DNA from: a virus
Direction: 5' to 3' (one strand)
Virus record (IMG/VR): IMGVR_UViG_3300029309_000041
Span: 23,635-58,200 of that record
Length of the DNA: 34,566 nt
This document shows positions 2,601 to 26,324 of the stretch, piece after piece. Positions within the stretch are counted from its first letter, which is position 1. Each line of letters starts with the position of its first letter. The position numbers and the translations under genes are program-made. A model generated the notes under the pieces. It did no database searches. It was not told the origin of the DNA and saw only the letters and a list, made by a program, of their open reading frames with translations.

Positions 2601-2842
2601 TAATTTAACTCCTTATCATTTGTAGGAACAACGTGTAATATATTTCGTTCTTCCATATAGTTTTTCCAAAACATCAGGATAAGGGATGGATCATCCACCC
2701 CTATAAGTTCCTGACAACCTTGAGCTATCATCGTATCTGATACTACACGAGCCAGTTCGTCATGTCCTGACTCGTATAATGCCGACCAGACCATACCCAA
2801 TACATCCGCGTCCAGCGTGTATTTATTAGGGTTATCTGCCAT
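2600..2842 (-). CDS. Small hypothetical protein, 80 aa
   Basis: An acidic helical protein (MADNPNKYTLDADVLGMVWS...) with no recognised domain. It is coupled at both ends, sharing a TAATG overlap with the DUF932 gene upstream and the 102-residue gene downstream. The context is a run of small early-type genes, so a host-takeover or accessory replication role is possible, but nothing in the sequence shows one. Confidence 0.6.
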   Translation of the reverse strand: MADNPNKYTLDADVLGMVWSALYESGHDELARVVSDTMIAQGCQELIGVDDPSLILMFWKNYMEERNILHVVPTNDKELN

Positions 2843-3876
2843 TAAGCCACCTTCGCGTATTTAACAGCAAGGTCAAGGGCTTTCGATTTACGAAGTGCTC
2901 CTGCACCGAACCACGCACTATGTAGCGCATTACCTTCTGTATGAGACTCGCGTAAGTGATCCTCAACATATGTAACTGCATTTAGTGCGCCCCACCATGT
3001 ACCTTTAGAAGACTTCAGGTTTGCACCTGGTTGCTGCTCAAGAGCATCAACTACAAGTCTAGGATAGGCGTTAAACCTATCGACCAAAGGATCAAGTTGA
3101 CCAACAACTTTCCCTTGTTCTTTTAGTTTCAGCTCGTGCCGATACTCTTCGAAAGTAGTGGGTTGGTATAGCTCAGTAATAAACTCAAGCACGTTAGAGT
3201 GTTTAGCTTTCTGTTTAGAAAGATACTCAGCCGCTTGTTTAAACTCAGCCATTCTGCCTGCAGATAGTCCTAACGCCTCTTCAGCACTTTGCATAACATC
3301 GTCATCAAAGGCTTTTATATGAGGCATGCGGAAAGATGCTGTGCCCCCCAGACCTAGAGCAAATGTAAGCGTGTTGTTACATACAACTCTAATAGGCGTA
3401 AGCTTGATAGTCATCGATCTACCTACAACGTGTGGTTGGTTAAAAAGAAGATAACCTTTAATCTCGTCACCACCTGCGAGCTCAAAGTCTTCAGAGATTT
3501 TAGCTAACCCCCAAACTTCTTTTCCGTCTTTTAAACTACCTGCAGTTTCCATGGTCATGTGACCAGCTTCTGTAAAGCGTTTAAAAAACTTAAATACATC
3601 CTCATTTTGGATCGGAACGTAGTCGTTACCGCAATGACTTAGTACTTGGTTATCAGAATCACGAACAATGTGGAATGTATTAGGTGCTTGTATAAGCCCC
3701 ACATCTTCGCTCCATTCAGGCGCGTCTAGCGTATAACTAGGACGTTTACTAACAGTCCAGTCAAGCTTTGCCGCTTCCTGCATTTGTAATGGCGTTAGGT
3801 CGTTAGATACCTCGACACCCAATCCGTGCCAAGGCTTATCTCCCGTCCAAGCCATAGTTTCTACTTCATGTGCCAT
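2842..3876 (-). CDS. DUF932 / phage-plasmid-like TIGR03299 family protein
   Basis: The 344-residue protein opens with MAHEVETMAWTGDKPWHGLG, the typical N-terminus of the DUF932 (TIGR03299) family shared by phages and plasmids. Further family-like features are HIVRDSDNQVLSHCGNDYVP around residues 68-87, a LFNQPHVVGRSMTIKLTPIRVVCNNTL block near residues 145-172, and a C-terminal GTWWGALNAVTYVEDHLRES segment. The length is normal for the family. Its biochemical function is not established; proposed links are with DNA metabolism or mobile-element maintenance. The start has a strong AAGAAAGGAGAAAT leader, so it heads the leftward string of small genes. Confidence 0.85.
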   Translation of the reverse strand: MAHEVETMAWTGDKPWHGLGVEVSNDLTPLQMQEAAKLDWTVSKRPSYTLDAPEWSEDVGLIQAPNTFHIVRDSDNQVLSHCGNDYVPIQNEDVFKFFKRFTEAGHMTMETAGSLKDGKEVWGLAKISEDFELAGGDEIKGYLLFNQPHVVGRSMTIKLTPIRVVCNNTLTFALGLGGTASFRMPHIKAFDDDVMQSAEEALGLSAGRMAEFKQAAEYLSKQKAKHSNVLEFITELYQPTTFEEYRHELKLKEQGKVVGQLDPLVDRFNAYPRLVVDALEQQPGANLKSSKGTWWGALNAVTYVEDHLRESHTEGNALHSAWFGAGALRKSKALDLAVKYAKVA

Positions 3877-3904: not shown

Positions 3905-3950
3905 TGATCGTAGCTGTTAAGCTACGCCGTATATTAAATAGTACACGGCT
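3905..3950 (-). other. Tandem hairpins in 72 bp intergenic gap
   Basis: CGTAGC and GCTACG (3909-3925) form a hairpin with a 6 nt loop. A second helix, GCCGT/ACGGC, lies beside it toward the VRR-NUC stop codon. There is no U-tract. Just inside the VRR-NUC gene is the 9-mer AAAGTAAAG (3954-3962), also found upstream of two other leftward genes. This probably is the regulatory leader of the DUF932 gene. Confidence 0.35.
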
Positions 3951-4338
3951 ACGAAAGTAAAGCAGTATAAAGAGCGTCCCATTCGTAAGGAATATCTAGA
4001 GTTAACAGACTATCAGATTTATAACCATTTTTAACGAGTTCTTGAGCACGTTCGATACCATCGATATGGTAGAGCTTCATTTGATTGTTTTTCCGAGCGA
4101 GTACGAACACCTGACCGCCGTGCATTGCACGTTTAGAAAGCCAAGCGACTTGCATTGGACGTAGAGTGAGTGAGTTACCTGAGTGAACTTCTTTAAGCTC
4201 AATCCAAAACTCTTTGCCCTTAACACAGCCATTAACGTCAGGTACACCAGAGCCTGTAATACCTGTCTCTATACGTTGCCAATGTACTTGTTTTATATTG
4301 TCTCTAAGTAGAGCCCACAGATTTTTTTCTTTTGGCAT
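3949..4338 (-). CDS. VRR-NUC-type nuclease, 129 aa
   Basis: This is a minimal PD-(D/E)xK endonuclease of the virus-type replication-repair nuclease (VRR-NUC) family. Visible active-site elements are E24, the GVPDVN motif with D34, E47-L-K49 in FWIELKE, and Q63 in the PMQVAW helix. Stand-alone VRR-NUC domains of about 100-130 residues are usual in phages and are thought to process branched DNA or act as Holliday-junction resolvases. The gene overlaps the upstream zinc-finger gene by 35 bp, and its ribosome-binding site is weak, so translation probably relies on coupling. The family call is secure; the exact substrate is inferred. Confidence 0.85.
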   Translation of the reverse strand: MPKEKNLWALLRDNIKQVHWQRIETGITGSGVPDVNGCVKGKEFWIELKEVHSGNSLTLRPMQVAWLSKRAMHGGQVFVLARKNNQMKLYHIDGIERAQELVKNGYKSDSLLTLDIPYEWDALYTALLS

Positions 4339-4963
4339 AATCTAATACTTCCGAAATTAATTTACCACTTTTCGTTCTTGATGGTGACATAGTAAAAAAG
4401 CCTTGATCTTCTGCTTCTACTTCGGTTATTTTTACAACTTTAGGAACCTCTCCTCTTTTTTCTTTATGATATCGCTCCATCTTGTCTGTCCAATTATGAT
4501 AACGAACACTGGTTAATTGTGGTAAACCTTTTTTCTTTCTATGATAGTTTCTTATACTTTTTGCCTCCCAATACTCTCTACCACTGTGTTTAGCTTGAGT
4601 TCTCCTTTCGTATCTAGCTATTGATAAAGCGTATTCACTACGTAATAACATATGTAAATCTTCTGTATCTTCTTGTACATAAGCTGTATAACCACCGTTA
4701 GCATCGTACGCACAATCAGCGTAAAATTCAGCTTGAGCTAATATATCAGGATCGACATAGTATTCTCCATAACTATTAGGTTGTTCTATAAAACGATGTT
4801 CAGTAAGGTCAGTAATACTGTATGGGTTTTTACGAGAATCATATTCATGTTGTCGTTTACATTCTTTACTACAAAATAATTCTGTCTTTTTAACATAGAA
4901 AAATTCTTCATAACATTGCCCACATATACGTGCAGTATCTGCTCTAACCTCGTACTCGAACAT
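4304..4963 (-). CDS. Zinc-finger-containing hypothetical protein, 219 aa
   Basis: The N-terminus (with the chosen start) carries ICGQC, then FCSKEC about 14 residues later: a C-x2-C...C-x3-C zinc knuckle followed by a basic helix, like small treble-clef fingers in HNH-type phage proteins. The rest is charged, Tyr- and Arg-rich, and contains no visible HNH or other catalytic motif. I chose the start at 4963 because it forms a TGATG overlap with the upstream stop; an ATG 5 codons earlier (4978) is also possible. No family is recognised. Its place between HTH and VRR-NUC genes suggests nucleic-acid binding. Confidence 0.65.
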   Translation of the reverse strand: MFEYEVRADTARICGQCYEEFFYVKKTELFCSKECKRQHEYDSRKNPYSITDLTEHRFIEQPNSYGEYYVDPDILAQAEFYADCAYDANGGYTAYVQEDTEDLHMLLRSEYALSIARYERRTQAKHSGREYWEAKSIRNYHRKKKGLPQLTSVRYHNWTDKMERYHKEKRGEVPKVVKITEVEAEDQGFFTMSPSRTKSGKLISEVLDYAKRKKSVGST

Positions 4964-5304
4964 CAGAACATATCCCATCCTGTATGCGGAGCTACTTTTT
5001 TATTATTATTTATGACTCGTACTTCATTAGACTCGAGCCAGTCAGTAAAAGCTAATCCAGCTTGTTTTTTATCTCCGTAAGTAGAGTAGAACTCAGACCA
5101 TTTATCTCTAGCTATTTTGACACCATAGTAATAATCGCCCTTACCTAATTTACATCTAGTTATTATTTGCCACATACGTTGTTTCGTAAGGTCATATTCC
5201 TCACCTAATTTTTCTAAAGTGCAATCTTCTTCTAACCATTTATCGTAAATTTTTCTATACCTCAAAGCATTTTCATCTGCTTTTTGTTTTGAGATTCCTC
5301 TCAT
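4963..5304 (-). CDS. HTH-containing small protein, 113 aa
   Basis: Residues 24-55 contain DCTLEKLGEEYDLTKQRMWQI, a sigma-70 region 4-like helix-turn-helix in which the second helix (TKQRMWQIITR) would read DNA. The rest has no recognised domain and no dimerisation region is clear. The gene is coupled at its start to the polymerase stop codon and at its end to the zinc-finger gene. It may be a transcription regulator or a DNA-binding accessory factor for the polymerase. The HTH is visible; the role is inference. Confidence 0.65.
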   Translation of the reverse strand: MRGISKQKADENALRYRKIYDKWLEEDCTLEKLGEEYDLTKQRMWQIITRCKLGKGDYYYGVKIARDKWSEFYSTYGDKKQAGLAFTDWLESNEVRVINNNKKVAPHTGWDMF

Positions 5305-7163
5305 TATATTTCCTCCGTCTCACCCCAGTTTGGTCCAAGCTCTGTATCTACTACAAGAGGAACAGCAAGTTCTACACAGTTTTCCATAATTCTTGAAACT
5401 TTAGCTGCTTGTTCATTATCCTCTATAGATATATCGACTTCGTCATGTACTTGTACGTGAGGAACTATTCCTTCCTCCCATAGACCTAACATTGCTAATT
5501 TAGTCATATCTGCTGCAGAACCCTGAATCAATCTATTTAGGGCTTTATATGTAAAAGATCTTTTTAATGTATCACCGTATTTAATTTTAGCTTCCTCTAG
5601 AGGTAGGGGAACGCTTTTATCATATTTATGTTCCCACAGATCGAAATGACACCTACGACCTGCGAGAGTTCTTATATAACCTCTATCGAGAGCCACACGG
5701 GTACAGTGATCCTGTATGCCTCTTATAAAAGGTACTTTTTCATGATACTGAGCGAGTAGAGTCTGAGCTTCAGCATCGTCTAATCCTAGTTCCCTAATAA
5801 GTTTTTCTTTACCCATTCCATAACTAAGTCCTAAATTAATATTTTTAGCCTGTTTACGGGGTATTTTAGCCATATCCGCTACTATCTGATGGAAATCTGC
5901 GTTCTTATCTCTATAGGCTTTTACGGCGTCCTCAGCCCCTATTAATCCTAGTTGGTTAGCGTAATGTACCGTAAGTCTAGGTTCTTGTTGGGAGTAATCG
6001 AACACACCCCATTGACAGCCCTCCTCTGGTATAAAGATAGAGCGTATCAAGTTACCTATCTCTGGGTCACGAGCAGGCACTTGTTGTAAGTTAGGGTTGC
6101 TGTAGCTGAAACGACCACTAACCGTGCCGCCTGAATCATTACGTAATGGGTGAGCTTCGGCATGGATTCTACCATTGTACGAATGTTCTGAAATCATTTT
6201 TTCTATAAATGTAGTTCTAGCTTTATTAAACTTTCTAGCTTGTACTATCATTTTAGGTAAGTCATGTTCGTGGTTTTCTAACCACTGTCTTTGAAAACTA
6301 GCCATACCTTTTTCAGTTCTAGGGTATGGTAGATTGTTTTTATCAAACACCTTTTGTAAAGATGCGTTAGCCCATAGGTTTACATCTTCCCCATATTTAC
6401 GTTTTATTTCTACTAATAGCTTTTGTTCTTTTAACGATAAATCTTTACTGATTTTATCTGCTTTCTCTTCGTCTACTCTAACACCCCTCCACCTCATTTC
6501 TATTAATAAAGGAATTAATTTACATTCTAAAGAATAGATTGACTCTAAGCCTTGTTGTTTAAGTTCTTCTTTTAATTTATGGTAAACCTTTAACGTAAGT
6601 GCTGCATCTTGCTCACCGTACGGTCCAACATACTTAGAATTAAGTTTATACATTTCTGACTTAGGGTTGATACCCCAAGCCAAGGCAGCGTCTTGTAGTA
6701 ACGACTCATCTTTTTTCTCTCCGCAATAAGTCTGTCCAAGTGAGTCAAGAGAGTAGGAGTATCGGTTTTCATCTACGATTGGAGCAGCAAACATAGTGTC
6801 AAGGATTTCACCCTTAACCTCCACTCCTTCTCTCCTTAACCACCCAACATCATATAAAGCGTTATGAAAAATTACTTCTCGTTTAGGAGAAGATAGAGTA
6901 TTTTTCACCCACCGCAAGACAACTGCCTCGTCAAGGTTGCCACCGCCTTCATGACGAATCGGAAAGTAACCTTTCCAATCTTTAGTAGCAACGCCCACTC
7001 CAACAATATGACCACGTCCTGTAGCCCATCCAGGACCAGACGTGAGTAAAAATGGGTCATACGTTTCTAAATCTACAGCGATACGTTCATCATCTGCAAA
7101 CTTAGGAAAGATCTCTGGTATTATCCAGTTACTTTCAGGAGCGAACATAGGAGACTGATGCAT
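5304..7163 (-). CDS. polA: Family A DNA polymerase with 3'-5' exonuclease (Leu762 type)
   Basis: This is the phage replicative polymerase. The exonuclease domain shows D31 and E33 (AVDLETYDP), D105 (HNALYDVGWL) and D186 (YGEQDAALT). The polymerase domain shows motif A D389 (DYSQQEPR), motif B K440 followed by NINLGLSYG, and motif C H573-D574-E575 (VHDEVD). Position 444, equal to E. coli Pol I Phe762, is Leu, a variant well known in marine viral PolA. There is no 5'-nuclease domain, and 619 residues is normal for phage PolA. The start is coupled to the upstream Lys-rich gene (TAATG). It works with the primase, SSB-like protein and helicases of this window. Confidence 0.95.
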   Translation of the reverse strand: MHQSPMFAPESNWIIPEIFPKFADDERIAVDLETYDPFLLTSGPGWATGRGHIVGVGVATKDWKGYFPIRHEGGGNLDEAVVLRWVKNTLSSPKREVIFHNALYDVGWLRREGVEVKGEILDTMFAAPIVDENRYSYSLDSLGQTYCGEKKDESLLQDAALAWGINPKSEMYKLNSKYVGPYGEQDAALTLKVYHKLKEELKQQGLESIYSLECKLIPLLIEMRWRGVRVDEEKADKISKDLSLKEQKLLVEIKRKYGEDVNLWANASLQKVFDKNNLPYPRTEKGMASFQRQWLENHEHDLPKMIVQARKFNKARTTFIEKMISEHSYNGRIHAEAHPLRNDSGGTVSGRFSYSNPNLQQVPARDPEIGNLIRSIFIPEEGCQWGVFDYSQQEPRLTVHYANQLGLIGAEDAVKAYRDKNADFHQIVADMAKIPRKQAKNINLGLSYGMGKEKLIRELGLDDAEAQTLLAQYHEKVPFIRGIQDHCTRVALDRGYIRTLAGRRCHFDLWEHKYDKSVPLPLEEAKIKYGDTLKRSFTYKALNRLIQGSAADMTKLAMLGLWEEGIVPHVQVHDEVDISIEDNEQAAKVSRIMENCVELAVPLVVDTELGPNWGETEEI

Positions 7164-7516
7164 TATTTCTTTTTCTTTCTAACAACCTTTACATTCTTTT
7201 TCTTAGGTTTCGGTGCTTTACCGCCTACCCAAGCTTCATTAACATCAGGCGTAGATTTATCGTCAGATTTATACGTTCCTTTTTTAGTTCTAGCTCTTTT
7301 GGGCTGTTTAGGCTCCTCAAACTTCGCTAACTCTACAGTAGCCTCTTCCATCTGTTTTGAAATAAGATCCTCTACTCCCTCCTTAACCATTTCCGATAAA
7401 ACAGGGTTTTCTTTTTTACTTATTACACCCTCTTCTATCTCTTCTTTAGTTAACTCTTGAGAGTCGTTATCTACTACTAATTTTGGTTTTCTTCTGAACC
7501 AGTCGAACCATCCCAT
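7163..7516 (-). CDS. Lys-rich small protein, 117 aa
   Basis: The protein starts MGWFDWFRRKPKLV, an aromatic and basic amphipathic opening, then has an acidic middle (residues 20-70) and a very Lys-rich tail. No family is recognised. It looks largely disordered apart from a helical middle. A GGAGG ribosome-binding site before the ATG supports the start, which lies 40 bp inside the Nmad1 gene. It lies between the polymerase and the modification genes, so it may be an accessory of either, but nothing shows which. Confidence 0.6.
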   Translation of the reverse strand: MGWFDWFRRKPKLVVDNDSQELTKEEIEEGVISKKENPVLSEMVKEGVEDLISKQMEEATVELAKFEEPKQPKRARTKKGTYKSDDKSTPDVNEAWVGGKAPKPKKKNVKVVRKKKK

Positions 7517-7833
7517 GACTCTTCCTCCATATTTTCATTAATATCACCTGAGTTGTTTAAGATATATTCTTCAACAAGTATCAAGTATCTACGTAAGTCT
7601 CTAATATCATCGAGTAAGCCAGCCTCACCTTTAAAAGCTTCGCCCGCTTCAAATACATCCCAACCATGTCGCTGAGATTGATGCTCGATCCTATCGAACT
7701 TACGTGCCAACATCATGAAAGCACCCACGCCACCGCGTCGCCTCCACGAATCTCCATAAGACTCTTCAGCTTTTTTCAAAGCTTGTAAGTCTAACTGCGC
7801 TATATCGCGCATATTTTCCCACTTATTTTCCAT
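7477..7833 (-). CDS. Nucleotide modification associated domain 1 (DUF1599) protein
   Basis: Residues 18-90 carry AEESYGDSWRRRGGVGAFMML followed by ARKFDRIE and a later DDIRDLRRYLIL helix. This is the pattern of DUF1599, renamed Nmad1 because it recurs beside phage base-modification genes. The fold is all-helical. Its reaction is not established. The gene follows the thymidylate synthase-like gene with an 11 bp overlap and a GGAGG ribosome-binding site, and sits two genes from the 5-hmdU kinase-like gene, which supports a role in thymine modification. The length (118 aa) is typical. Confidence 0.75.
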   Translation of the reverse strand: MENKWENMRDIAQLDLQALKKAEESYGDSWRRRGGVGAFMMLARKFDRIEHQSQRHGWDVFEAGEAFKGEAGLLDDIRDLRRYLILVEEYILNNSGDINENMEEESWDGSTGSEENQN

Positions 7834-8872
7834 CGTTTCCTCCTTCGTTATTAAGTGTCCAAGATAAATCTCTCTTTTTAATCCAATCGAAACAAGCTGT
7901 CATCCAGTCGTTCGGTAGAATTCTCATAACCTCTTTATAGGCTAATTCATAATCTCTCTTTTTATGTGCGTTAAATGTTTTAACCATGGGTACAGCTATA
8001 TTTTTAAATGCTGGGTTGTCCCATGTGTCGTCGTCATACGACGGCATATCCTCTGGGTGAATATTAAAAAACCTATCTAACTCCCAATCAAATACTTCAG
8101 GCTTAGTAATAAAATTCGTATACGCAATACCGTCTAATGTATCGTAAGGATTTTTTAAACTAGAGTACGTCCATGGATCTATCTCCACGCCTTTTACTCT
8201 CTCCCAAACTTCGTTATGGTATACGTGAAAGCTATCACTAACTTGTCTATATGTGCCCATACTGATTTCTAAATGACCTGCGATATATTCTTGTAACATA
8301 GACATATGTACTGCGTTCGCACCGTAAGCTCCCCAAAGCATATCATTAGAACGGTTACAAACCGTCATGTGTAATTGCTTATCTCGTATCTTAAAATAGA
8401 TACTTGTATTACACGGCACGTCTTTACTGTTCCTTCCAAGGTCTTTATTAGCGTCCCACATCTGTAAAACACAGCGTCTATCGTCGGGATTATTTCGTAA
8501 CATTTCTATAACCATTTTAATCTGGTCTTTATGGAAATAACTGCGCCACCTCCAACCGTACGCTCCCCATAAAGTTTCTCCGTCATCAGAAAAGTTCTCC
8601 ATAGATTTAACATATCGAGTTAAAGGGGCTAAATCTTTACGCCCCGCTAACATCCATAAACCCTCTATAAAATGGAAGAAAGGGTTAGCGTCTCTTATCT
8701 TTAGAAGCAACACTCTCTCCCAAGGCTTTTCGTACACCGTAGTCACAGGCTCAAGTGCCTCGTATGTTGTTCCGTTTCTACTTTCTTGTTCACGAAAGTT
8801 ACGAGGATCTTGAAATAAATCCAGTCCTAATAAAAAAGCATCGTTTACATTTCTAGCTTTTATTACTTTCAT
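7823..8872 (-). CDS. Thymidylate synthase-fold enzyme, probable dUMP (hydroxy)methylase
   Basis: The 349-residue protein has thymidylate synthase hallmarks: paired R132-R133, catalytic C154 in the VPCNTS segment, CNRSNDMLWGAYGANAV (residues 172-188), and the DSFHVYHNE block. The family transfers a one-carbon unit from methylenetetrahydrofolate to C5 of dUMP or dCMP. N186 matches the Asn that selects uracil over cytosine in ThyA, favouring dUMP. The residue after the catalytic Cys is Asn, not the usual His. Because it sits with Nmad1 and 5-hmdU kinase-like genes, dUMP hydroxymethylase (making 5-hmdUMP) is my preferred reading. Ordinary dTMP synthase remains possible. Confidence 0.8.
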   Translation of the reverse strand: MKVIKARNVNDAFLLGLDLFQDPRNFREQESRNGTTYEALEPVTTVYEKPWERVLLLKIRDANPFFHFIEGLWMLAGRKDLAPLTRYVKSMENFSDDGETLWGAYGWRWRSYFHKDQIKMVIEMLRNNPDDRRCVLQMWDANKDLGRNSKDVPCNTSIYFKIRDKQLHMTVCNRSNDMLWGAYGANAVHMSMLQEYIAGHLEISMGTYRQVSDSFHVYHNEVWERVKGVEIDPWTYSSLKNPYDTLDGIAYTNFITKPEVFDWELDRFFNIHPEDMPSYDDDTWDNPAFKNIAVPMVKTFNAHKKRDYELAYKEVMRILPNDWMTACFDWIKKRDLSWTLNNEGGNDGK

Positions 8873-9102: not shown

Positions 9103-9984
9103 CTATTCTTCTACCAACGGTAGTTCTTTATTATATTTATAAACACTTCGTGTTCGACCCTCTTCGTTTAGTATCCGAGAGTATTTATCGAATTCACAAA
9201 GCCCTCCTTCTATTTCCCTCATCTCAAACCGACTTAAATCGATTAAGTTAGAGTTAAGTCTTTCGCGAGATATTTCCCACAAATTACGCATCTCATCATT
9301 CCATGGATGAGTACGCCTTGAAAAATCTAAATCTCTTCCTGCTAATCTATTGAGCCCTCGCATCGCCCCTGGACCAGCATTAGCCCATGTCAAAATATCT
9401 TTAGCGTCTCGTAGTAAATAGGTGTGTCGTAAATCAGTTATAACTTCGTACGCCATGAATGGACCCATGTACGGATAGTCCCGCAAAATCTCCCAAGATT
9501 TTTCTAACGATTCCGTAGCTAGTATTTGGTCTACGAGTTTTTCTCTATCTCCCCACATATGGGATATACACTCTGCTACGCCCGTAACTTTATCCATACG
9601 GTTAGGTGTTTTAATAATGTAGGCACCTGTTATCCATTGATCTTGTTTCGTTATTTCTTCTATAGCTTTCTTTCTATCCCACTCAATATGTAAGTTATGG
9701 CGTACTAAAGTTCTCCCTGTTTCTATAAAATTAAACCAACGAAAAATTACAGTAGCCATTAACACTTCAGGATCATCCCGCCATACATTACGTATGTGTC
9801 GTTTAAACCAACGAGTCGTCCTATCTTCTTCTCGAAATACCTGACAAAATTTAAACTTTTGTAGTATAAGGTCATCTGTCCACGGTGGCTCGTGTTGTAA
9901 TACTTCTTTATTAATACGTATGGTTTCCCTTTCATGTATCCAATAAAAGTATAAGTCGAGCCTATCCCGTAGTTCTTGAATCAC
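9103..9984 (-). CDS. 5-hydroxymethyluracil DNA kinase-like protein (HMUDK helical family)
   Basis: The N-terminal pattern YFYWIHERETIRINKEVL, then PPWTDDLIL (residues 33-41) and KFCQVFREEDRTTRWF (residues 45-60), is the signature I know for the 5-hmdU DNA kinase helical family, once called alpha-glutamyl/putrescinyl thymine pyrophosphorylase. Characterised members in phages with hypermodified thymine phosphorylate 5-hydroxymethyldeoxyuridine in DNA and so activate it for replacement by other groups. The length (293 aa) fits. It overlaps the methyltransferase gene by 4 bp (ATGA), and the thymidylate synthase-like gene is two genes downstream. The family call is good; the activity in this phage is inferred. 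Confidence 0.78.
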   Translation of the reverse strand: MIQELRDRLDLYFYWIHERETIRINKEVLQHEPPWTDDLILQKFKFCQVFREEDRTTRWFKRHIRNVWRDDPEVLMATVIFRWFNFIETGRTLVRHNLHIEWDRKKAIEEITKQDQWITGAYIIKTPNRMDKVTGVAECISHMWGDREKLVDQILATESLEKSWEILRDYPYMGPFMAYEVITDLRHTYLLRDAKDILTWANAGPGAMRGLNRLAGRDLDFSRRTHPWNDEMRNLWEISRERLNSNLIDLSRFEMREIEGGLCEFDKYSRILNEEGRTRSVYKYNKELPLVEE

Positions 9985-10850
9985 TTTTTAACAAGCCTCC
10001 ACGCACAGTTGTTAGCGACCTCAGGGTAAAATACCGCCGCCGCCATTCTTAAAAACTGTTTACCGAAACGTTCTTGTAACGTTATAAGTTGTTCCATACT
10101 CCATCCAGTGTGGGTTATTCGGTCATAGTCTTTGGTATAGTTATCCTCATGCATGGCTTTCTTTAATTTAGGCATTTGTATAAACGTACCTGTTACTGCC
10201 TCTATACGGAAGTTTCTTTCTAGTTCTTCTTTTAGTTCTTGAAAGCCCCACTCATAGACATGATCCTCGGGCAACTTATCGTTAGAGCCGTCATGGTTAG
10301 GCGTTGATATATAAGCAATAGCATCAGGTCGCATAACCCTTGCCGCCTCATCAAGCCAAGCGGGGACAAACTCTCTGCCCATGTGTTCAATAACTTCTGT
10401 CGACCAAAAGAAGTCTATACTTTCATCGGGTAAGTCTAGTATCGGATTAGTTGTTAAATCCTGTATACGTATCTCGCCGTTAAAATTCTTAAACCATGTA
10501 GATTCTTCTAGTTCTCCCCCACCGTTCGACCAAAAAGGGTTTTCTAATTGACACGCTGGATCGATATCGTACCCGTAATAAGAACGGATAACATCAGACT
10601 TTTTAATAACATAAGCCTTATACAACACTCTTAATGACCAACACTCACCACAACCTATTTCTAAAGTATCTAATGGTCTACCTAATAATTTAGATTCTTC
10701 TATAGCCAAACTAGCTATTTTATCGAATCTACTCATATGAGCTAATTCATCAGGTCGCCAGTTTCCTAACACACCTGCAGAAGCTAAATCCATCCGAGTG
10801 TTTTTGCTATCGTTTTCGTTAACTTTTAATTTTCGTCTTATAGATGACAT
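9981..10850 (-). CDS. Class I SAM-dependent methyltransferase, 289 aa
   Basis: Motif I LEIGCGE (residues 63-69), an acidic post-I motif YGYDID near residue 95, and motif IV FFWSTEVIEHM show a Rossmann-fold methyltransferase of the Methyltransf_11/23 type. It has no DPPY/NPPY motif of adenine or N4-cytosine DNA methylases and no PC motif of C5 enzymes, so small-molecule or modified-base O/N-methylation is more likely. The start has an AGAAAGGAGAAAAT leader, and the CTTTACTTT element lies 50 nt upstream. It heads the modification operon and is coupled to the kinase-like gene, so a late step in base modification is possible; other substrates cannot be excluded. Confidence 0.75.
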   Translation of the reverse strand: MSSIRRKLKVNENDSKNTRMDLASAGVLGNWRPDELAHMSRFDKIASLAIEESKLLGRPLDTLEIGCGECWSLRVLYKAYVIKKSDVIRSYYGYDIDPACQLENPFWSNGGGELEESTWFKNFNGEIRIQDLTTNPILDLPDESIDFFWSTEVIEHMGREFVPAWLDEAARVMRPDAIAYISTPNHDGSNDKLPEDHVYEWGFQELKEELERNFRIEAVTGTFIQMPKLKKAMHEDNYTKDYDRITHTGWSMEQLITLQERFGKQFLRMAAAVFYPEVANNCAWRLVKK

Positions 10851-10884
10851 ATTTTCTCCTTTCTAATATACACATTTAATTATC

Positions 10885-10909
10885 CTTTACTTTTAGTTGC
10901 AAAGTAAAG
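10885..10909. promoter_or_regulatory. CTTTACTTT inverted repeat upstream of modification operon
   Basis: A perfect 9 bp inverted repeat (10885-10893 and 10901-10909) has a 7 nt loop. Its minus-strand arm CTTTACTTTGC is followed 50 nt later by the methyltransferase ATG. The same 11-mer lies 50 nt before the ATG at 16222. On the minus strand, TTTACT and GATAAT are spaced by 18 nt and could be a -35/-10 pair. It may be promoter, operator or both. Confidence 0.45.
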
Positions 10910-10915
10910 AAGTTT

Positions 10916-12412
10916 TTATATTTGAAAGCATCTTGTTGTAGTAGGTTCTATCAAATATAAATTCTCTTTTGCCCTAGTAAGCCCAACATAAAACACCCTG
11001 TTTTCGTCGTCAGGGTTTTGTTGATATGTTTTATAAACTCTATTAGTTATATCTGTTAATAAAACTACGTTTGTAGCTTCGCCACCTTTAGCGGCATGTA
11101 TGGTAGATAAACGTATTCTAGGTTCTTTCGTAATTTTTTCTCCTCTTCGTAACATAGCCCGTATATAACTAACCTCTTTAGGAGTTAAAGAAGTAAGGGC
11201 ATCGTACCAATCTCCATCAGGTAGTTCGGGAAAACGTTCCTTTAAATCGGCTAGCGTCATCATCGCGTCAATTTCTAAAACATCTAGGGAGTTTACCTTA
11301 CGGACTTTTATAAATTTTAACAGATTGACGCATTCTGATAGGGGTAAACTATCTCCTTTCCTTAAAATCTGCCAATTTAACACAGCTTTTATTTTTGTAT
11401 CAGAAATACTAGGTCTGCCTTTAACTTCAAAAAACCATCCTTCGTTTCTACAATAATCATCGATTTGTTCTAATAAATAATTTGTTCTAGCTAATACTAA
11501 CCAATCACCTTTTTCCATATTAATAAGTTCGATAGACGGTTCCCACCTAACTAATCCTGTTTGTTTCCTAGGAAGCCATGCCTTATGAATCCTGGATCGT
11601 ACTTGATTAATACATCGACTAGCTAATTCATGAACCGCTGACGGTATACGGTAAGATTGTTCTAAGATCATTGCATCTTTAGAGTTTTGTATTAAATAAT
11701 CTACGTCTGCACCTGCCCACTTATAAATAGCTTGGTCATCATCTCCTGCCACATATACACGGTCAGCATACTGAATAATCTTACGAACCACTGCCCACTG
11801 TAATGGAGATAAATCTTGAGCTTCATCTACAAAAACTGCATCTAATTTAGGCACATCGCCTTTTTCTAAAAACAGTTTTAGCATATCCGTATAATCCACT
11901 AATAATCTATCTTGTTTAAATAAGTCTAACCCTCTTGCATATCGTTCTAATTCGAACCAACCTACTGCATCCTCTACATCGTGCCATTGATCTTTTAAAT
12001 CTACTTGTCTCATACGGGATAGATTTTCTATAAAAGCTAAACGATCATCGTGGCTCATTCCAAATAAATGTCCTGAGTCTGTACCCGCTCCGCCTGTTAA
12101 TCTTAAATTAAGAACTTGATTTAATTCTCTTATATCTTTTAAATCCATAACGCTTTCTTTAGAAAGACCTAATTGTCTAAACGCTAAAGAATGGAGCGTA
12201 CGGAAAAACGGTAAATCTTTACGAGTTAGTTCAAATTTATCCATAGCTCGTTGTTTACCTTCATTAACCGCTTTTTTAGTGAACGTAAAAAATCCTATCC
12301 TAGTAGGCTCTGTACCTTTTTCTAATTCATCTTCTATAAGACCTAACAATGTGCTCGTCTTGCCTGTTCCTGGTGGTCCAAGAATAACTTGTGTATGGTC
12401 AGGCAGTGTCAT
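10916..12412 (-). CDS. UvrD/Rep-type superfamily 1 helicase
   Basis: A 498-residue SF1A helicase. Walker A is G12-PPGTGKT-19, motif II is VDEAQD, motif III GDDDQAIYKWAGA, motif IV-like EQSYRIP, motif V STIHAAKGGEATNVV and motif VI FYVGLTRAKENLYLI. All core motifs are intact, so an active 3'-5' DNA translocase is expected. It is shorter than cellular UvrD (about 720 aa), with reduced insert domains, as is usual for phage versions. It is coupled by an ATGA overlap to the AlkB-like gene. It probably acts at the replication fork or in recombination, alongside the SNF2-type helicase at 16535-17977. Confidence 0.92.
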   Translation of the reverse strand: MTLPDHTQVILGPPGTGKTSTLLGLIEDELEKGTEPTRIGFFTFTKKAVNEGKQRAMDKFELTRKDLPFFRTLHSLAFRQLGLSKESVMDLKDIRELNQVLNLRLTGGAGTDSGHLFGMSHDDRLAFIENLSRMRQVDLKDQWHDVEDAVGWFELERYARGLDLFKQDRLLVDYTDMLKLFLEKGDVPKLDAVFVDEAQDLSPLQWAVVRKIIQYADRVYVAGDDDQAIYKWAGADVDYLIQNSKDAMILEQSYRIPSAVHELASRCINQVRSRIHKAWLPRKQTGLVRWEPSIELINMEKGDWLVLARTNYLLEQIDDYCRNEGWFFEVKGRPSISDTKIKAVLNWQILRKGDSLPLSECVNLLKFIKVRKVNSLDVLEIDAMMTLADLKERFPELPDGDWYDALTSLTPKEVSYIRAMLRRGEKITKEPRIRLSTIHAAKGGEATNVVLLTDITNRVYKTYQQNPDDENRVFYVGLTRAKENLYLIEPTTTRCFQI

Positions 12413-12990
12413 AGCCCTGTCCTAAAAGTTAAATTAATCCTTTCGTTAACGCCACTTACTCTAGGTACAGCATGTGTTGCTGACATCTGAGAAGCTCCGT
12501 CAAAAATTATTACATCGCCGTGTCTTAATATATAAGACCTGAACTTGCTTATGTCCACCCCCTCGGTGTTTATTTCGCTAGTATCAGTTCTATCTTTAAT
12601 ATTTCCAGCGTACTGCCTCCAATTAAATACTCGTGGCTCTCCGAAAGAGATAGAGACAACAAGGTCATCTTCTGTAGGAACAGTATCTGAATGATAAGGA
12701 ACGCCTACTTGACCATTTTTATAAAGACCACATAAACAAAAGGTAAACTCAACTTCACGTCCTGTAACTCTTTTAGTATATTCCTCTGCACCTTGTTTAA
12801 TCCATGCCATATTTTTACTCCACGGATCAGGTTCATATAACTTACCCGCATATTCAAAAGAAGATAAGCCATAAGCCCTTGTTGGTCTACCTACGACAGG
12901 TTTTCCATTAAATATTCTTTCTACTGGGTTATCCCATTTTTCGATATACGGCATATAATCTTTCATGCCTCCTCTCATATAAGTCATCAT
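12409..12990 (-). CDS. AlkB-like 2-oxoglutarate/Fe(II) dioxygenase
   Basis: The 193-residue protein has the iron site H100-x-D102 (PYHSDTV) and H173 (SATHAVPR), and the 2-oxoglutarate-binding R184-x5-R190 (ERINLTFR). The ISFGEPRVFNWR and GDVIIFDG strands are also typical of AlkB. Cellular AlkB removes alkyl lesions from DNA or RNA. The gene lies between primase and helicase genes with ATGA overlaps at both ends, so it belongs to the replication operon. Repair of the phage genome is the simplest role. Because a thymine-modification cluster is close by, oxidation of a modified base is an alternative; TET/JBP-specific features are not visible. Confidence 0.85.
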   Translation of the reverse strand: MMTYMRGGMKDYMPYIEKWDNPVERIFNGKPVVGRPTRAYGLSSFEYAGKLYEPDPWSKNMAWIKQGAEEYTKRVTGREVEFTFCLCGLYKNGQVGVPYHSDTVPTEDDLVVSISFGEPRVFNWRQYAGNIKDRTDTSEINTEGVDISKFRSYILRHGDVIIFDGASQMSATHAVPRVSGVNERINLTFRTGL

Positions 12991-14510
12991 ATTGGATTCT
13001 CATTAAATTCTGGTAAGTCGTGGGATTCGGTCTGAGCGATAAACTCTGTAATGTACCAAACATTAACACCCTTACCTTTTATGTTAAAAAAGTGTGGACT
13101 ACCCTCCATCTGTTTTAGTTTTGCTGTAAGTTTGTTTCTAGGATAATCTTTAAAATTATGCCTATGTAAATACTCCATAAGGTCAGCTAATCTAAAATAT
13201 GTTTTACCATTCTCTGTCCACGGTTTATGTAAAAGTATTTCATCCTTCTCTCTAGCAGGTCTTTCTGTACAAAAAGTTTCTAATAGCTCTAAGAAGTGTC
13301 CTTCTGTAGAAGATTCTTTAGGTACTTCAACTATCGTTAAACTATCTAATAGTTGCTGTATTATCTGTCTCCATACGTTTTCTTTTACTTTAGGAGGTAT
13401 TTTATTTAAAGCGTCCATACATTTACGCTGAAATCTGTTTTGGTTTAATAAATCATCTGTTTCTAATTCTAATCTCCCACCCTCAACATCTAAAAACCAG
13501 ATAGGTGGATCACTATCTTGTTTAGTTAAATTACTAAATAATGGCGTTCCGCCGTTAGCCCCTATACCATGTTTTCTTGTTCTACATAATGGACTATTAC
13601 AATGACTCGCTATAGGTTGGTCATTACATCTATAAAAATAATCTTTCCTTTTTAGTTGTTTAGTTACCGTAATAACTTCTTGTGCCCCCAATGGTGGTTG
13701 CATATATTGTAAGTTTACTTTCTCTAATCTTGTTTCCCACTCGTCTGGGTATTTTTTCCTTAAAAACACTCCAACGTTAAATAAACCTGAGTTCCTAGTT
13801 CCTTTAGGAAATCCCTGAACTATTAAATGTTGTATACATGGAGGGGCTTGGTCTAGCCAATCTATGTTTTCCGCTAAAGGACTAGCCTCTAACTTTTCTA
13901 TTTGCTCTACTGTTAGAGTTATTTCTTTAACTCTTTCTATAAATTCTTCTGGACTTAGAGCTTGACCCTCAGTTCCATAACCATACCTAGTAGAACTCTC
14001 TCCCCCAAAGTAAGGCATATTTAATGTGCTACCTCTATCCCCCCTATCTAACAACAGCTGTGTTTGTTTAGGGAATATCTCCGCTTGACCGTAACCTATA
14101 GAAGCCGCTATCTGCCTTAACTTTCTTTGTAATAAAGAGGCAGGCACGGGATCTTCTATGAACAAGTAAATATGGGCTCCTCCACTTTTACTACGACATA
14201 CGATTAATGGTAATTTATGTTTAGATAATTTTTTAGATAATCCTTTTAAGTCTAAGGAGTACTCATCAACATCTATAGCACCCCAAACGCAAGCATTGTT
14301 CTCGTCGATTGGGACGAGCCCAATGCTTTGTTCACCTGACAGGTGATTTTCCCATAATTGTAAAACATCGTCTTCAGATAACTCTTTAGATATAGTAATG
14401 TTTTTACCACCTGCTTTTCCATCTTCTCTCGATTCATTCGTAGCTGTAAAAGTTCCATATGCCTGCCGTAGTCCAGCGTAACGTGTAGCAAATTCCTCTG
14501 CTAACGACAT
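12987..14510 (-). CDS. Archaeo-eukaryotic-type (AEP) primase, TOTE-like
   Basis: The N-terminal domain has the AEP catalytic signatures: D80-x-D82 in GAIDVDEY, the SKSGGAHIYLF motif with H113, and EIFPKQ (residues 144-149). A Cys/His cluster (C295, H303, C304, C309, H314) forms a probable zinc site. Residues from about 330 make a helical C-domain resembling PriCT-type modules of phage primases. This architecture resembles the primase part of TOTE-type proteins. It replaces a DnaG-type primase. The start has an AAAGGAG leader. It works with PolA and the SSB-like protein next door. The family is secure; the subgroup is from memory. Confidence 0.85.
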   Translation of the reverse strand: MSLAEEFATRYAGLRQAYGTFTATNESREDGKAGGKNITISKELSEDDVLQLWENHLSGEQSIGLVPIDENNACVWGAIDVDEYSLDLKGLSKKLSKHKLPLIVCRSKSGGAHIYLFIEDPVPASLLQRKLRQIAASIGYGQAEIFPKQTQLLLDRGDRGSTLNMPYFGGESSTRYGYGTEGQALSPEEFIERVKEITLTVEQIEKLEASPLAENIDWLDQAPPCIQHLIVQGFPKGTRNSGLFNVGVFLRKKYPDEWETRLEKVNLQYMQPPLGAQEVITVTKQLKRKDYFYRCNDQPIASHCNSPLCRTRKHGIGANGGTPLFSNLTKQDSDPPIWFLDVEGGRLELETDDLLNQNRFQRKCMDALNKIPPKVKENVWRQIIQQLLDSLTIVEVPKESSTEGHFLELLETFCTERPAREKDEILLHKPWTENGKTYFRLADLMEYLHRHNFKDYPRNKLTAKLKQMEGSPHFFNIKGKGVNVWYITEFIAQTESHDLPEFNENPI

Positions 14511-14527
14511 ATGTTTTCTCCTTTATT

Positions 14528-15325
14528 TTAGAAGGGAGCATCTTCCTCGGAATCTGTAGGTATTTCTACTCCTCCGTCTCTTTGCTGCTCTTCTTTTACT
14601 TCTACCTCACCCGATCTAGCAGCGTTCATAAACTCTTTAGCTATATGCGCTGTTTCTACGTCGGTTGGACCCTCTTGATTTACAGTAAACCCGTTCCACG
14701 AACCTTTATCATTAGATTGTGATAAAGTTCCTAACGTATATTTATACGCGAACATAGGAGCAGATACTGACTGACCTTTGCTAGTTTGAACTCTTGCCAT
14801 TCTTAACATAGTCAACCACTTCCTAGAAGCACCTAACTGTGTGGATGTAAAAGCTACTACCGCTTGTTGTGGTGTAGGTTCTAAAACTAATATAAAGAAC
14901 TGTGCCGTTTCTACTATTTCGTTACCGTTATCTAAATATAATCTACGGGACTCAGGATCTTTTGTACAAGATTTTAAAATAGAAGCACCATGGTCAGCGT
15001 TCACTAAGCCACCACCCTTCTCTCTAGGAACCCACTCAATGTATTTTTTAACATACGCGCAAGGCACAACTGTGATGCCTTTCTCCCCGTCGTAGACTTC
15101 ATTAGTCACTGTATTAACAAGCATGCCTGCTTGTGCATCTGGGTTATATCTTCCGTCTTGTTTATTAAGTTGTGGGGACATTTGCTGAAGAACCCTGATA
15201 AACGGGATCGCAAAATCCTCAGTTGTAGTTTCTTCTAATCCTGTACCACCCGATAATAAATCATCGTCAAAAGTAGCGATTGCTGTTTGTTTCGCCTCAG
15301 CTAGGCTTGTTTTATCTTCTGCCAT
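14528..15325 (-). CDS. Candidate single-stranded DNA-binding protein, 265 aa
   Basis: The protein resembles a widespread phage family with TEDFAIPFIRVLQQMSPQLNK near residues 36-56 and NTVTNEVYDGEKGITVVP near residues 72-89, whose function is usually left unassigned. The C-terminal tail is acidic and ends EEDAPF, very like the DDDIPF tip with which bacterial SSB binds partner proteins. Together with its position directly before the primase gene, this suggests a phage SSB. No OB-fold can be proven by eye. It is preceded by an AAGGA site and follows a 191-residue gene after 4 bp. Confidence 0.6.
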   Translation of the reverse strand: MAEDKTSLAEAKQTAIATFDDDLLSGGTGLEETTTEDFAIPFIRVLQQMSPQLNKQDGRYNPDAQAGMLVNTVTNEVYDGEKGITVVPCAYVKKYIEWVPREKGGGLVNADHGASILKSCTKDPESRRLYLDNGNEIVETAQFFILVLEPTPQQAVVAFTSTQLGASRKWLTMLRMARVQTSKGQSVSAPMFAYKYTLGTLSQSNDKGSWNGFTVNQEGPTDVETAHIAKEFMNAARSGEVEVKEEQQRDGGVEIPTDSEEDAPF

Positions 15326-15329
15326 AATA

Positions 15330-15905
15330 TTAATCCTTCTTAATAATAGCTTTGGAACCTATATAGATTCCAAATGGTTCTGTTGGAATATCCTTTCCAG
15401 ATGTTAATTGCTCTTTAACAAAAGCTTTTAACGTACTTGGATGGACGGTTTGTTTTACCTCTGGTGATAGCCCCCTAGATTTAAGAGCCATAACAGTTTC
15501 ATCAACTACTTGCCCCTCCTCTCTACCAAACTTTAACGAAACTTCATTTTTAATTAAACCTTCGTGTCCGTTTTCGACTAACCATTGGTAAGCGAGCTCT
15601 TGATTAGCTTTAGATATATGAGCGTTATAAAACTCAGTAACAGATATTTTTTCACCTGTACTAAGAACTATCTCTGTAAGCCCTGCGGTTTGCATAGCCT
15701 CAGGTAACTCTTGTTCTGAAGTTAATCTAAACTCTTCTTTTTTAGCTTTTACAGCTTCTTCTAACTCTGAAAGTTCTTGAGCTAGTTGTAACTGTTTATT
15801 AGCTAACGTAGATACTAATGAAAGCTCTCCGTCATTAAGGTCGTTAAAAGTCTCGACTGTGTCTTGACCAGTAAGTTCCTCAAACGTTGGGTTTTCTTTA
15901 TTCAT
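15330..15905 (-). CDS. Coiled-coil protein of replication block, 191 aa
   Basis: Residues 30-65 (LANKQLQLAQELSELEEAVK...) form a clear coiled coil. The rest, with SEQELPEAMQTAGLTEI and VHPSTLKAFVKEQL segments, matches a type of conserved phage protein of unknown function often found beside replication genes. No catalytic motif is visible. Its start has an AGAAAGGAG site and overlaps the upstream stop in ATGA, so it is coupled to the 106-residue gene. It may be a scaffold or DNA-metabolism accessory, by context only. Confidence 0.65.
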   Translation of the reverse strand: MNKENPTFEELTGQDTVETFNDLNDGELSLVSTLANKQLQLAQELSELEEAVKAKKEEFRLTSEQELPEAMQTAGLTEIVLSTGEKISVTEFYNAHISKANQELAYQWLVENGHEGLIKNEVSLKFGREEGQVVDETVMALKSRGLSPEVKQTVHPSTLKAFVKEQLTSGKDIPTEPFGIYIGSKAIIKKD

Positions 15906-16222
15906 AATTCTCCTTTCTGATGTAGGTCGATATCGACAGGATAGTACACGCCTTCCTGTCTATCCCATTTAAGAATACTATAACGACCTCGATTAATAAA
16001 TGCAGCTATAGAACACGCGACTCCAATAGCTGCGGGATCTCCGATCAATAATAAGTAATCACCTTCTTTATAGTCCTGAAGTATTCTCTTCATTCTTCTA
16101 ACTGAAGGTGCTGCACTTAACATGATATTAGTTTGCGGAGGTAACAAAACTTCAAAATCACCATACTGTCTAGCAGATGCGATATTCCGCCCCGATACTT
16201 CTTGAACAACATATACCGTCAT
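15902..16222 (-). CDS. Small hypothetical protein heading replication operon, 106 aa
   Basis: This is the first gene of the leftward replication operon. It reads MTVYVVQEVSGRNIASARQY and has alternating hydrophobic strands and helices, with GDYLLLIGDPAAIGVACSIA near residues 74-93, like a small Rossmann-type or flavodoxin-like sheet. No known family is assigned. The start has a TTAGAAAGGAGAAAA leader, and the 11-mer CTTTACTTTGC lies 50 nt upstream. It may act early because of its position. Function is unknown. Confidence 0.65.
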   Translation of the reverse strand: MTVYVVQEVSGRNIASARQYGDFEVLLPPQTNIMLSAAPSVRRMKRILQDYKEGDYLLLIGDPAAIGVACSIAAFINRGRYSILKWDRQEGVYYPVDIDLHQKGEL

Positions 16223-16272
16223 TTTTCTCCTTTCTAATTTCTACAGGTTTTAAGATACTATCCTAATACGGC

Positions 16273-16281
16273 AAAGTAAAG
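16273..16281 (-). promoter_or_regulatory. CTTTACTTT element upstream of replication operon
   Basis: The minus-strand CTTTACTTTGC stands exactly 50 nt before the ATG at 16222, the same spacing as at 10901-10909. A TAGTAT about 12 nt after the 9-mer could serve as a -10 element. The shared word and spacing suggest a promoter or operator. Confidence 0.4.
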
Positions 16282-18449: not shown

Positions 18450-19445
18450 TTATCTCCTTGGTCTAAACGACTGCGCGAATAGTTGTGTTAGTTTATCGTT
18501 TTGTTGCATCGGGGGCAAGCCTGCTAATCCCATATTCATAGGACTATTCGGTAATTTCATAGCTCCTCCACCTCTCATAGACATAAACCCTAAATTAGTT
18601 TGAGGTTCTTCTCCTGGTCTACTGCCAAACTCTGCTGCGGACATCGGTCGCACAAAAGTTGTTTGCTGTTGTGGAGGTGCAGGATTATATACTGCGTTTT
18701 GTAATGCAGAATTATAAGCCTGTCTTTGTTGTGTAATTAAATTACTTATGGGTGAATTAATCGGTGCAGGTCGACCGCTCACATCTGGCAATCTTACAGG
18801 GGGTGAAAATACACCAGGAGGTTGATTAGGATCATACGCAGGAATATTATCACGTCCTGTACTTGGTAATGATCCAACACCCCCTATAATAGGTAAATCT
18901 AATTCGTTAGCTCTACCTATAGCCCTTTCGTCATCACTATTTAATAAACCAAGTAATCCTGCGGCTAATTCTTCATTAGTTAAAGTTGGTGTATTGAAAG
19001 CTATCGGTGCTGCTGCTGGAGTAGTCACTGCTGGAGTAGTCACTGCTGGAGTAGTCACTGCTGGAGTAGTCACTGCTGGAGAAGTTTCTACTGGAAGAGC
19101 TTGTGTTATAGTTTCTTTAAAATCAATAAGATCAGGAGCTGTGGGTTCTGCGAACGTAGGAAAATCTCTATCGGAAACAGCTTCTATAGCTTTATCTTGT
19201 GGCATCATTGTACCTAAAACTTGTTCTACTACAGGAGGAAGAGAACCAATACCAGATTCGAAATCTGTTATTTGGTCAATCACGTTTTCAGCTACGTCTT
19301 TTTCGAATTCATTTGTTGAATTAGATAAATCTTGTTCTGCTAAATATTTAGCAACTTGTGACGCAATACCTGCGTTTATGTCTTCCAGATCAATATTTGG
19401 AAGAGCAAAGTTTCCTATATTTATACCACCAAATCCTGGACCCAT
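18450..19445 (-). CDS. Proline-rich virion-region protein with PAVTT repeats, 331 aa
   Basis: The N-terminal third is hydrophilic and acidic. Residues about 125-145 are four exact PAVTT pentapeptides, encoded by a 15 bp direct repeat. The rest is Pro/Gly/Gln-rich and probably disordered, ending in a basic RPRR. No enzyme motif is visible. It is coupled to the 1100-residue gene (TAATG), so it probably is made in step with it. A flexible linker or minor virion component fits; the exact role is unknown. Confidence 0.65.
   Translation of the reverse strand: MGPGFGGINIGNFALPNIDLEDINAGIASQVAKYLAEQDLSNSTNEFEKDVAENVIDQITDFESGIGSLPPVVEQVLGTMMPQDKAIEAVSDRDFPTFAEPTAPDLIDFKETITQALPVETSPAVTTPAVTTPAVTTPAVTTPAAAPIAFNTPTLTNEELAAGLLGLLNSDDERAIGRANELDLPIIGGVGSLPSTGRDNIPAYDPNQPPGVFSPPVRLPDVSGRPAPINSPISNLITQQRQAYNSALQNAVYNPAPPQQQTTFVRPMSAAEFGSRPGEEPQTNLGFMSMRGGGAMKLPNSPMNMGLAGLPPMQQNDKLTQLFAQSFRPRR
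19021..19080. repeat. Four tandem 15 bp repeats (PAVTT coding)
   Basis: Four identical copies of GTAGTCACTGCTGGA lie back to back, in frame with the 331-residue protein. The exact identity at DNA level points to recent expansion by slippage or recombination, and the copy number may vary between relatives. Confidence 0.9.
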
Positions 19446-25504: not shown

Positions 25505-26324
25505 ATCTTTGGTTTCCTAATTCATTAAAAGCTTCTAACCTAGCAATACCTTTAGCATGGTCACCGCCACCTACCTGATCTACTGCAGCTTTAGATAACA
25601 TAAACTCTCCATTACTTGCCATAACTGGTATTAAATCGTCTTTTGGACCACCTGGACCCTTAACGTCTCCTCCATCTAACATAGGATTAGCAGCAAACAT
25701 TCGTCTATCTAAAACTGCGTCAGGCTCTCCTCCATCTTTTAACATTTTATATGTAAAAGGATTTATTGTTGTTCCACCTACTCTTAAATCTCTATTAGAC
25801 ATACTTCTACCGCTTCGACTTGCTCCTGGAACTATAACACCTCTTCCTCTAATAGGTGCTGATGTTTCAGGATCTAATAACCCTTTAAATTTTGATAATT
25901 GTTCTAAATACATACTTACTTCATCTGCTGTATCCATAAGAAAATCTCTACGTCTTTCTCTATCAATTTTTCTATCTTGTTTAAAAAATTCGTCTTGAGA
26001 CGGAGCTGTAATTTCTAAGTCGGGATCAATATCCTCAAATAAATCGCCTATCCCCCCACCTACGTTTTTATATAGTTCACCTCCATGGTACATTTGTTGA
26101 GGTTCTTCTTGTTCTTTACGAAATATTTCCTCTAATAATTGATATTCGAAAGGGGTTATATCTAAACTTTCTAAACCTACAGGAGTATATTGAAGACCAC
26201 CGCCTCCTGTTTGTGTTTGCGCAGACACACCACCACCTCCTCCTGTTGTTTCAGGATCGAAAGCTTGTTTAGCGGCTGAAACCCCTGTTAAGAATTTACC
26301 TATAGTGGCTAATGTCTCTATCAT
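25497..26324 (-). CDS. Virion-region protein with GPGGPKDDLIPVMASNGEF motif, 275 aa
   Basis: Residues about 214-240 read GPGGPKDDLIPVMASNGEF then MLSKAAVDQVGGG. This short motif recurs at the end of many phage tail and internal virion proteins (usually as GPGTxxSDxIPAxLSxGEFV). The N-terminus is hydrophobic and Gly/Gln-rich, and the middle is highly charged. No catalytic site is visible. It is the first gene of the virion string after a 130 bp gap. A virion role is likely from motif and context; the exact position in the particle is unknown. Confidence 0.65.
   Translation of the reverse strand: MIETLATIGKFLTGVSAAKQAFDPETTGGGGGVSAQTQTGGGGLQYTPVGLESLDITPFEYQLLEEIFRKEQEEPQQMYHGGELYKNVGGGIGDLFEDIDPDLEITAPSQDEFFKQDRKIDRERRRDFLMDTADEVSMYLEQLSKFKGLLDPETSAPIRGRGVIVPGASRSGRSMSNRDLRVGGTTINPFTYKMLKDGGEPDAVLDRRMFAANPMLDGGDVKGPGGPKDDLIPVMASNGEFMLSKAAVDQVGGGDHAKGIARLEAFNELGNQRYG

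Follow-up and report, generated by a model that had tools for sequence, protein, structure and literature searches.

Evidence for a phage-specific promoter class with TTTACT in the place of the −35 hexamer, and a candidate reader of its box

Why should two operons of one virus begin at the same distance behind the same eleven letters? The question arises in a 34,566-nucleotide stretch of viral DNA (hereafter called “the window”; positions 23,635 to 58,200 of IMG/VR record IMGVR_UViG_3300029309_000041), where the minus-strand operons starting with the ATG codons at 10850 and 16222 are each preceded by the box CTTTACTTTGC. In this virus and its relatives, the core of the box stands at a fixed spacing before a −10 hexamer, is conserved, replaces the canonical −35 hexamer found in sister phages, and co-occurs with g5304, the gene of a small protein with a helix-turn-helix. 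We propose that the box marks a conserved, phage-specific class of promoters and that the g5304 protein reads it, and we put the probability of this whole explanation at roughly 0.58.

Anatomy and conservation of the box

The exact box occurs at 10899-10909 and 16271-16281, both on the minus strand, and neither the window nor the rest of the 58.2-kb record contains another copy. The 3′ end of the box is separated from the ATG by 48 nt in both cases; the first-pass annotation had likewise reported two minus-strand copies at equal distance, which stands, and had given this distance as 50 nt, which does not. The nine-base core CTTTACTTT was expected once more before the DUF932 gene and is indeed present at 3954-3962 on the minus strand, 77 nt from the ATG at 3876 and within the final codons of the upstream gene 3949-4338. 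In 300 dinucleotide shuffles, a mean of 0.033 exact copies of CTTTACTTTGC was obtained, and two or more copies appeared in only 2. When two mismatches were allowed, 19 sites were found against 17.4 expected, and this lack of excess indicates that the signal resides in the exact core. The shorter word CTTTACT occurs six times on the minus strand; five of these copies lie fully within non-coding DNA, which makes up 3.9% of the window, and one lies at the end of gene 3949-4338. Two of the boxes, at 1253-1259 and 2062-2068 on the minus strand, are of a variant type, CTTTACTCT, and had not been listed previously, and a third site lies just left of the window, at position 23227 of the record.

How are these boxes arranged? 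Five boxes in the window carry a −10-like hexamer 17 or 18 bp 3′ of TTTACT. In the promoter of the 16222 operon (16252-16281), the box at 16281-16271 contains TTTACT at 16280-16275, followed by a 17-nt spacer and TATCTT at 16257-16252. In the promoter of the 10850 operon (10879-10909), the box at 10909-10899 contains TTTACT at 10908-10903, and an 18-nt spacer leads to GATAAT at 10884-10879. The promoter of the DUF932-like gene (3933-3962) consists of CTTTACTTT at 3962-3954, which overlaps the end of gene 3949-4338, a 17-nt spacer and TTTAAT at 3938-3933. The two variant sites, at 2039-2068 and 1230-1259, also have 17-nt spacers, ending at TAAAGT (2044-2039 and 1235-1230, respectively); the former precedes gene 1568-1963, and the latter lies about 140 nt before a leader at 1090. 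All of these sites are on the minus strand. The leader GAAAGGAG of gene 15902-16222 is located at 16227-16234 on the same strand, and the same leader recurs at 10863-10856, 3890-3883 and 1977-1970. Generic sigma70 promoter scans were uninformative: they returned fewer sites than shuffled DNA (33 versus 59.4, and 41 versus 58.4), and of the three main sites they picked up only the 10909 site. Intrinsic terminator scans found none at 1230-1260, 2039-2068 or 10885-10909. The sixth CTTTACT, at 26387-26393 on the minus strand, is intergenic (between genes 26455-27576 and 25497-26324), has no −10 box at 17-18 bp and is followed by a GC-rich, hairpin-like stretch.

To follow the sites among relatives, we searched viral contigs with the primase (12987-14510) and obtained at least 80 related loci, 67-100% identical, of which 44 of 80 were kept after near-duplicate removal; counts for each site are restricted to loci with enough upstream DNA. 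The box stands before the 16222 orthologue in 42 of the 44 relatives, with positions 2-9 invariant and the flanks mostly variable, and the T, A and T of the −10 hexamer are kept in 41, 38 and 38 of these 42. Before the DUF932 orthologue it is found in 31 of 33 relatives (26 exact), and at the 10850 orthologue 17 of 38 have the exact box, many of the others having no intergenic stretch there. Over the 44 loci, CTTTACTTTG occurs 80 times on the gene strand versus 0 on the opposite strand (shuffles, 1.6 and 2.2), and CTTTACTTT followed by TAnnnT at 17 or 18 bp occurs 73 times versus 0.4 in shuffles.

Counting distinct leaders in at least 80 loci around the g5304 gene, with repeated upstream sequences dropped, we found an exact box upstream of 133 of 340 leaders and a box with one mismatch upstream of 66 more, compared with 2 and 5 of 327 control windows. 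TAnnnT stands at spacer 17 in 113 of 199 sites. The equal distance to the ATG, by contrast, is real in the window but partly coincidence: among relatives it is not constant (at the 16222 site, most often 58-77 nt from box start to ATG), and the conserved spacing is that to the −10 box; exact ATG spacing was accordingly ruled out as the key feature. Base 1 of the box is C or G, and G-type loci exist. Six distant carriers (L104, L105, L113, L376, L378 and L379) usually have the box as AGTCCTTTACTTT, with CATCAT, TATCAT, TAGAAT or TATGAT as the −10 hexamer and often a GTAGAAT-like stretch in the spacer, and in another phage (L114) all four of four sites read GTTTACTTT, base 1 being changed throughout.

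The first-pass annotation had suggested a “phage-specific promoter or operator for early genes”. The first term is well supported by the conserved sequence, the −10 box at a fixed 17 bp, the position before the leader, the strand bias and the absence from sister phages, and the motif search in relatives found the sites conserved and no frequent copies inside genes. We therefore regard these sites as very probably a conserved phage-specific class of promoters. The attribution to early genes is not borne out, as two of the three sites head operons for replication, repair and nucleotide metabolism (primase, helicase, polA, thyA). A better early candidate is a second promoter-like class, in which a CTTTA-type box (CTTTATT, CTTTATA or CTTTACA) stands about 17 bp before a perfect TATAAT and the same leader (L004, L118-L120 and L130); two such sites lie left of the window, near positions 21518 and 20315 of the record. 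With its weaker boxes and perfect TATAAT, this class may be early and active before g5304 accumulates.

The −35 swap and the co-occurrence with g5304

What occupies this position in phages lacking the box? A second primase scan (at least 80 loci, mostly sister phages) yielded the sister loci L174-L202, which mostly share the operon of 16222, primase, helicase and polA. Gene-strand CTTTACTTT and g5304 are both missing in 29 of 29 sister loci. In the subset of these 29 with readable rows (L181 and L185 are among those left out), a TTGACA or TTGCAA-like box precedes the 16222 orthologue, followed by a TACACT-type −10 hexamer and the same leader. Among distinct sites with spacer 17 and GGAG behind them, carriers of the box have TTTACT 197 times and TTGACA 0 times, while the sisters have TTTACT 0 times and TTGACA twice (15 times at spacers 16-18). 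The box thus replaces the canonical −35 hexamer at the orthologous promoter. A+T content alone does not explain this swap, since TTGACA promoters are found in AT-rich marine phages that lack g5304 (psg01 and the Pelagibacter phages HTVC027P and HTVC023P), and carriers retain the box across G+C contents from 0.32 to 0.51.

The box and g5304 travel together. g5304 is present in all 64 group A loci extending more than 800 nt past polA, and a gene-strand box is present in 27 of the 29 loci fetched via g5304 outside group A, including lineages with CATCAT, TATCAT and TAGAAT as the −10 hexamer. Because this set had been fetched via g5304, we also ran the reverse test, a scan of viral contigs with the motif only, which returned at least 119 stretches, 76 records being tallied. 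Three or more sites on a single strand are present in 23 of the 76 records listed, and g5304 is found in 21 of these, versus 8 of the remaining 53. Both exceptions, G017 and G065, are fragments whose sequence stops at the place expected for g5304 from synteny.

The candidate reader and its rivals

g5304 (4963-5304, minus strand) lies directly after polA and encodes 113 residues with a helix-turn-helix. Of 35 orthologues, 33 match the Pfam family Mor (best E value, 2.7e-6) and 29 match Sigma70_r4 (best, 4.8e-6), with E values up to 0.1 accepted in both cases, and the best solved-structure matches of the profile are to RpoD region 4 (E 0.0029). The predicted structure is fairly confident (predicted local distance difference test score, 84). 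We assigned no family from the fold; many helix-turn-helix families tie in the DALI-like rows. In one other phage, DSL-LC04, a gene at 12405-12662 of its locus (L085) is labelled “RNA polymerase sigma-G factor”; the label is doubtful, and a search of this locus with the g5304 profile gave no match.

The recognition helix, TKQRMWQI, aligns with residues 583-591 of Escherichia coli sigma70. All 35 orthologues retain T583, R586, Q589 and I590 and carry Q in place of E585; K or R stands at position 584, and R588 is replaced by W in 30 and by H in 5. According to one study, sigma70 R584 and E585 contact positions −31 and −33, and the substitutions E585Q and R588H relax specificity at −33 (PMC2613000). 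Relative to TTGACA, TTTACT has other bases at −33 and −30, with the C at −31 unchanged. Judged from the aligned sequences, the residue changes in g5304 would fit an altered base at −33.

On this basis, we propose the following mechanism. CTTTACTTT(G/C) would be the upstream box of the promoter class, with TTTACT substituting for the −35 hexamer and a sigma70-type −10 hexamer following after 17 bp (18 bp at one site). The host RNA polymerase with its housekeeping sigma would read the −10 box, while g5304 would make, or help to make, the −35 contact, standing in for or beside sigma region 4; in the promoter at 16252-16281, its binding would centre on TTTACTTT. The resulting mRNA would carry the GAAAGGAG leader, and the host polymerase would be moved onto the replication, repair and nucleotide genes. 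As g5304 sits downstream of one of the box promoters, it would also reinforce its own synthesis. We regard the reading of the box by g5304 as likely. The broader generalization, that in widespread marine phages a free-standing sigma-region-4-like protein (about 60-145 residues, with Q585 and W or H588) takes over the −35 contact at CTTTACTTT, is tentative, and we rate its chances at somewhat below even.

Several observations weigh against the reading of the box by g5304. The g5304 protein of the window falls below the curated cut-offs of both families (19.6 versus 24.9 bits for Mor, PF08765; 14.8 versus 24.1 bits for Sigma70_r4, PF04545), and in fold comparisons it reaches intermediate scores that other helix-turn-helix proteins share, sigma region 4 chains scoring at Z 3-4.4. 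Two of the 44 relatives, L046 and L068, have no box at the 16222 site, and in L089, despite the presence of g5304, the unmasked DNA shows no box ahead of the 1703 gene. Moreover, co-occurrence tracks shared descent, and records within a lineage are not independent evidence. The rest concern the two foremost rivals: HTVC027P, which has no g5304 match, carries TTTACT 18 bp before TATAAT at the orthologous gene; the perfect-TATAAT sites keep CTTTA-type boxes, as a host sigma with that preference would give; and thyA, 7477-7833 and 9103-9984 co-occur with the box nearly as well as g5304 does.

Could the host alone account for the box? If a housekeeping or alternative sigma of the host itself preferred a CTTTACT-type −35 element, these would be plain host-type promoters, with no phage factor involved. 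The 17-bp spacer and TAnnnT are sigma70-like, the perfect-TATAAT sites are the main support for this explanation, and the HTVC027P site also favours it. However, nine near-invariant bases exceed the conservation usual for a −35 hexamer, TTGACA is entirely absent at spacer 17 in carriers, the range of G+C contents presumably spans different hosts, AT-rich marine phages without g5304 use TTGACA, and the box pairs with g5304. We consider the host explanation unlikely, though it survives better than the other rivals. The accessible part of a transcriptome study of HTVC027P (PMC12753301) does not contain the word promoter. The contig of L089, with both the operon and g5304, has been assigned to a Candidatus Marinimicrobia metagenome-assembled genome; as the sole g5304-profile match in genome contigs, it is either a weak hint of the host or a misbinning.

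A second possibility is that another phage activator reads the box and g5304 merely travels along. Like g5304, the thyA gene, 7477-7833 and 9103-9984 do not occur in the 29 sister loci, and most lineages with the motif have them. However, the library searches made gave no recognised DNA-binding fold for any of the three, and no protein of the record other than g5304 gave a Mor-like match. This possibility is distinctly less probable than that of a host sigma.

The dyads raise a third possibility, that a dimeric repressor or activator covers the promoter, with the boxes as its operators and the dyads as its full sites. Exact 29-bp dyads occur at three sites (2039-2068, 1230-1259 and the site at 23227 of the record), two of them in the window, and at 10885-10909 the box and an inverted copy within the spacer on the plus strand, CTTTACTTTTA, form a 25-bp dyad, which recurs among relatives. 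The earlier suggestion of an operator may draw on these dyads, but most sites have a single box, and the dyad spacings differ by 4 bp. In addition, the second arm of the 29-bp dyad may be the −10 box, because TATAAT-like boxes occupy that place in relatives, and its symmetry may in part be just the TAAAGT-type −10 box. We regard operators as improbable. Finally, a promoter of a phage single-subunit RNA polymerase, to which a long near-invariant motif before several genes might point, is most improbable given the separate −10 box at 17 bp and the lack of a PF00940 match in the record (though control genomes gave none either), and a chance repeat is ruled out by the shuffles, the strand counts in relatives and the leader controls.

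Which genes would g5304 then serve? All are on the minus strand. The first gene of the 16222 operon, 15902-16222, is Pam3 gp32-like (PF23992) and is followed by 15330-15905, 14528-15325, the primase, 12409-12990 and a UvrD-like helicase (10916-12412). The 10850 operon begins with 9981-10850, a weak methyltransferase match, and continues with 9103-9984, a thymidylate-synthase-like gene (7823-8872), 7477-7833, polA (5304-7163) and g5304; the names polA and thymidylate synthase come from reading the sequence, not from a library match. The DUF932-like gene (2842-3876) matches phrog_1221, its DUF932 name being that of the first-pass annotation. Against named phages, the window DNA gave two weak matches only, and g5304 gave none. 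Elsewhere in the window, a 15-nt tandem repeat at 18998-19102, within gene 18450-19445, encodes a repeated five-residue stretch, and a cluster of small proteins very rich in lysine and arginine is encoded on the minus strand at 30670-31894.

Comparison with known systems

In a literature search, with most subscription journals outside its coverage, we found neither this promoter class nor a regulator of this kind described, and no named free-standing sigma4-like phage protein; the nine-base core turned up in five papers, none of them concerning phages of bacteria. Viral metagenome contigs contain these phages in good number (each of three protein scans gave at least 80 loci, in one of them mostly from sister phages), and the motif could help to label the operons and temporal classes of uncultured phages. 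If the proposed mechanism is true, sigma70 positions 585 and 588 become a testable explanation of a natural base change at −33.

The sites resemble sigma70 promoters (TTGACA-17-TATAAT) in their TAnnnT type of −10 hexamer, 17-bp spacing and position before genes. They differ in that the −35 element is TTTACT inside an invariant nine-base box, TTGACA being absent at spacer 17 in carriers. In Bacillus subtilis, YvrI with RsoA exemplifies free-standing sigma region 4 proteins, the −35 reader being on its own chain. In contrast, no gene for a sigma region 2 partner (Sigma70_r2) was found in this record.

The Pm promoter of phage Mu and its activator Mor offer another likeness: a small phage helix-turn-helix activator works with the host polymerase at a promoter that has a −10 but no −35 consensus (PMC4287176), and g5304 is a weak Mor match. 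The site of Mor, however, is a dyad centred at −43.5 and occupied by a dimer, whereas most sites here are single boxes at −35, and dyads are found at a few sites only, not upstream of −35. Identity with the MotA box of phage T4 was rejected; TGCTTTA resembles our box, and the spacing differs. The T4 middle promoters, with MotA and AsiA, are nevertheless similar in that a phage box replaces the −35 hexamer, the −10 hexamer stays, and replication and nucleotide genes are controlled (PMC6755090). The MotA box is centred around −30, whereas TTTACT stands here at the normal −35 place, ending 17 bp before the −10 hexamer. In neither Mu Pm nor T4, in the accessible parts of these sources, does the phage box lie at the normal position of the −35 hexamer (PMC4287176, PMC6755090). 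If our explanation is true, the box and g5304 would together constitute a compact redirection of bacterial RNA polymerase, in which one small protein does the work of T4's two.

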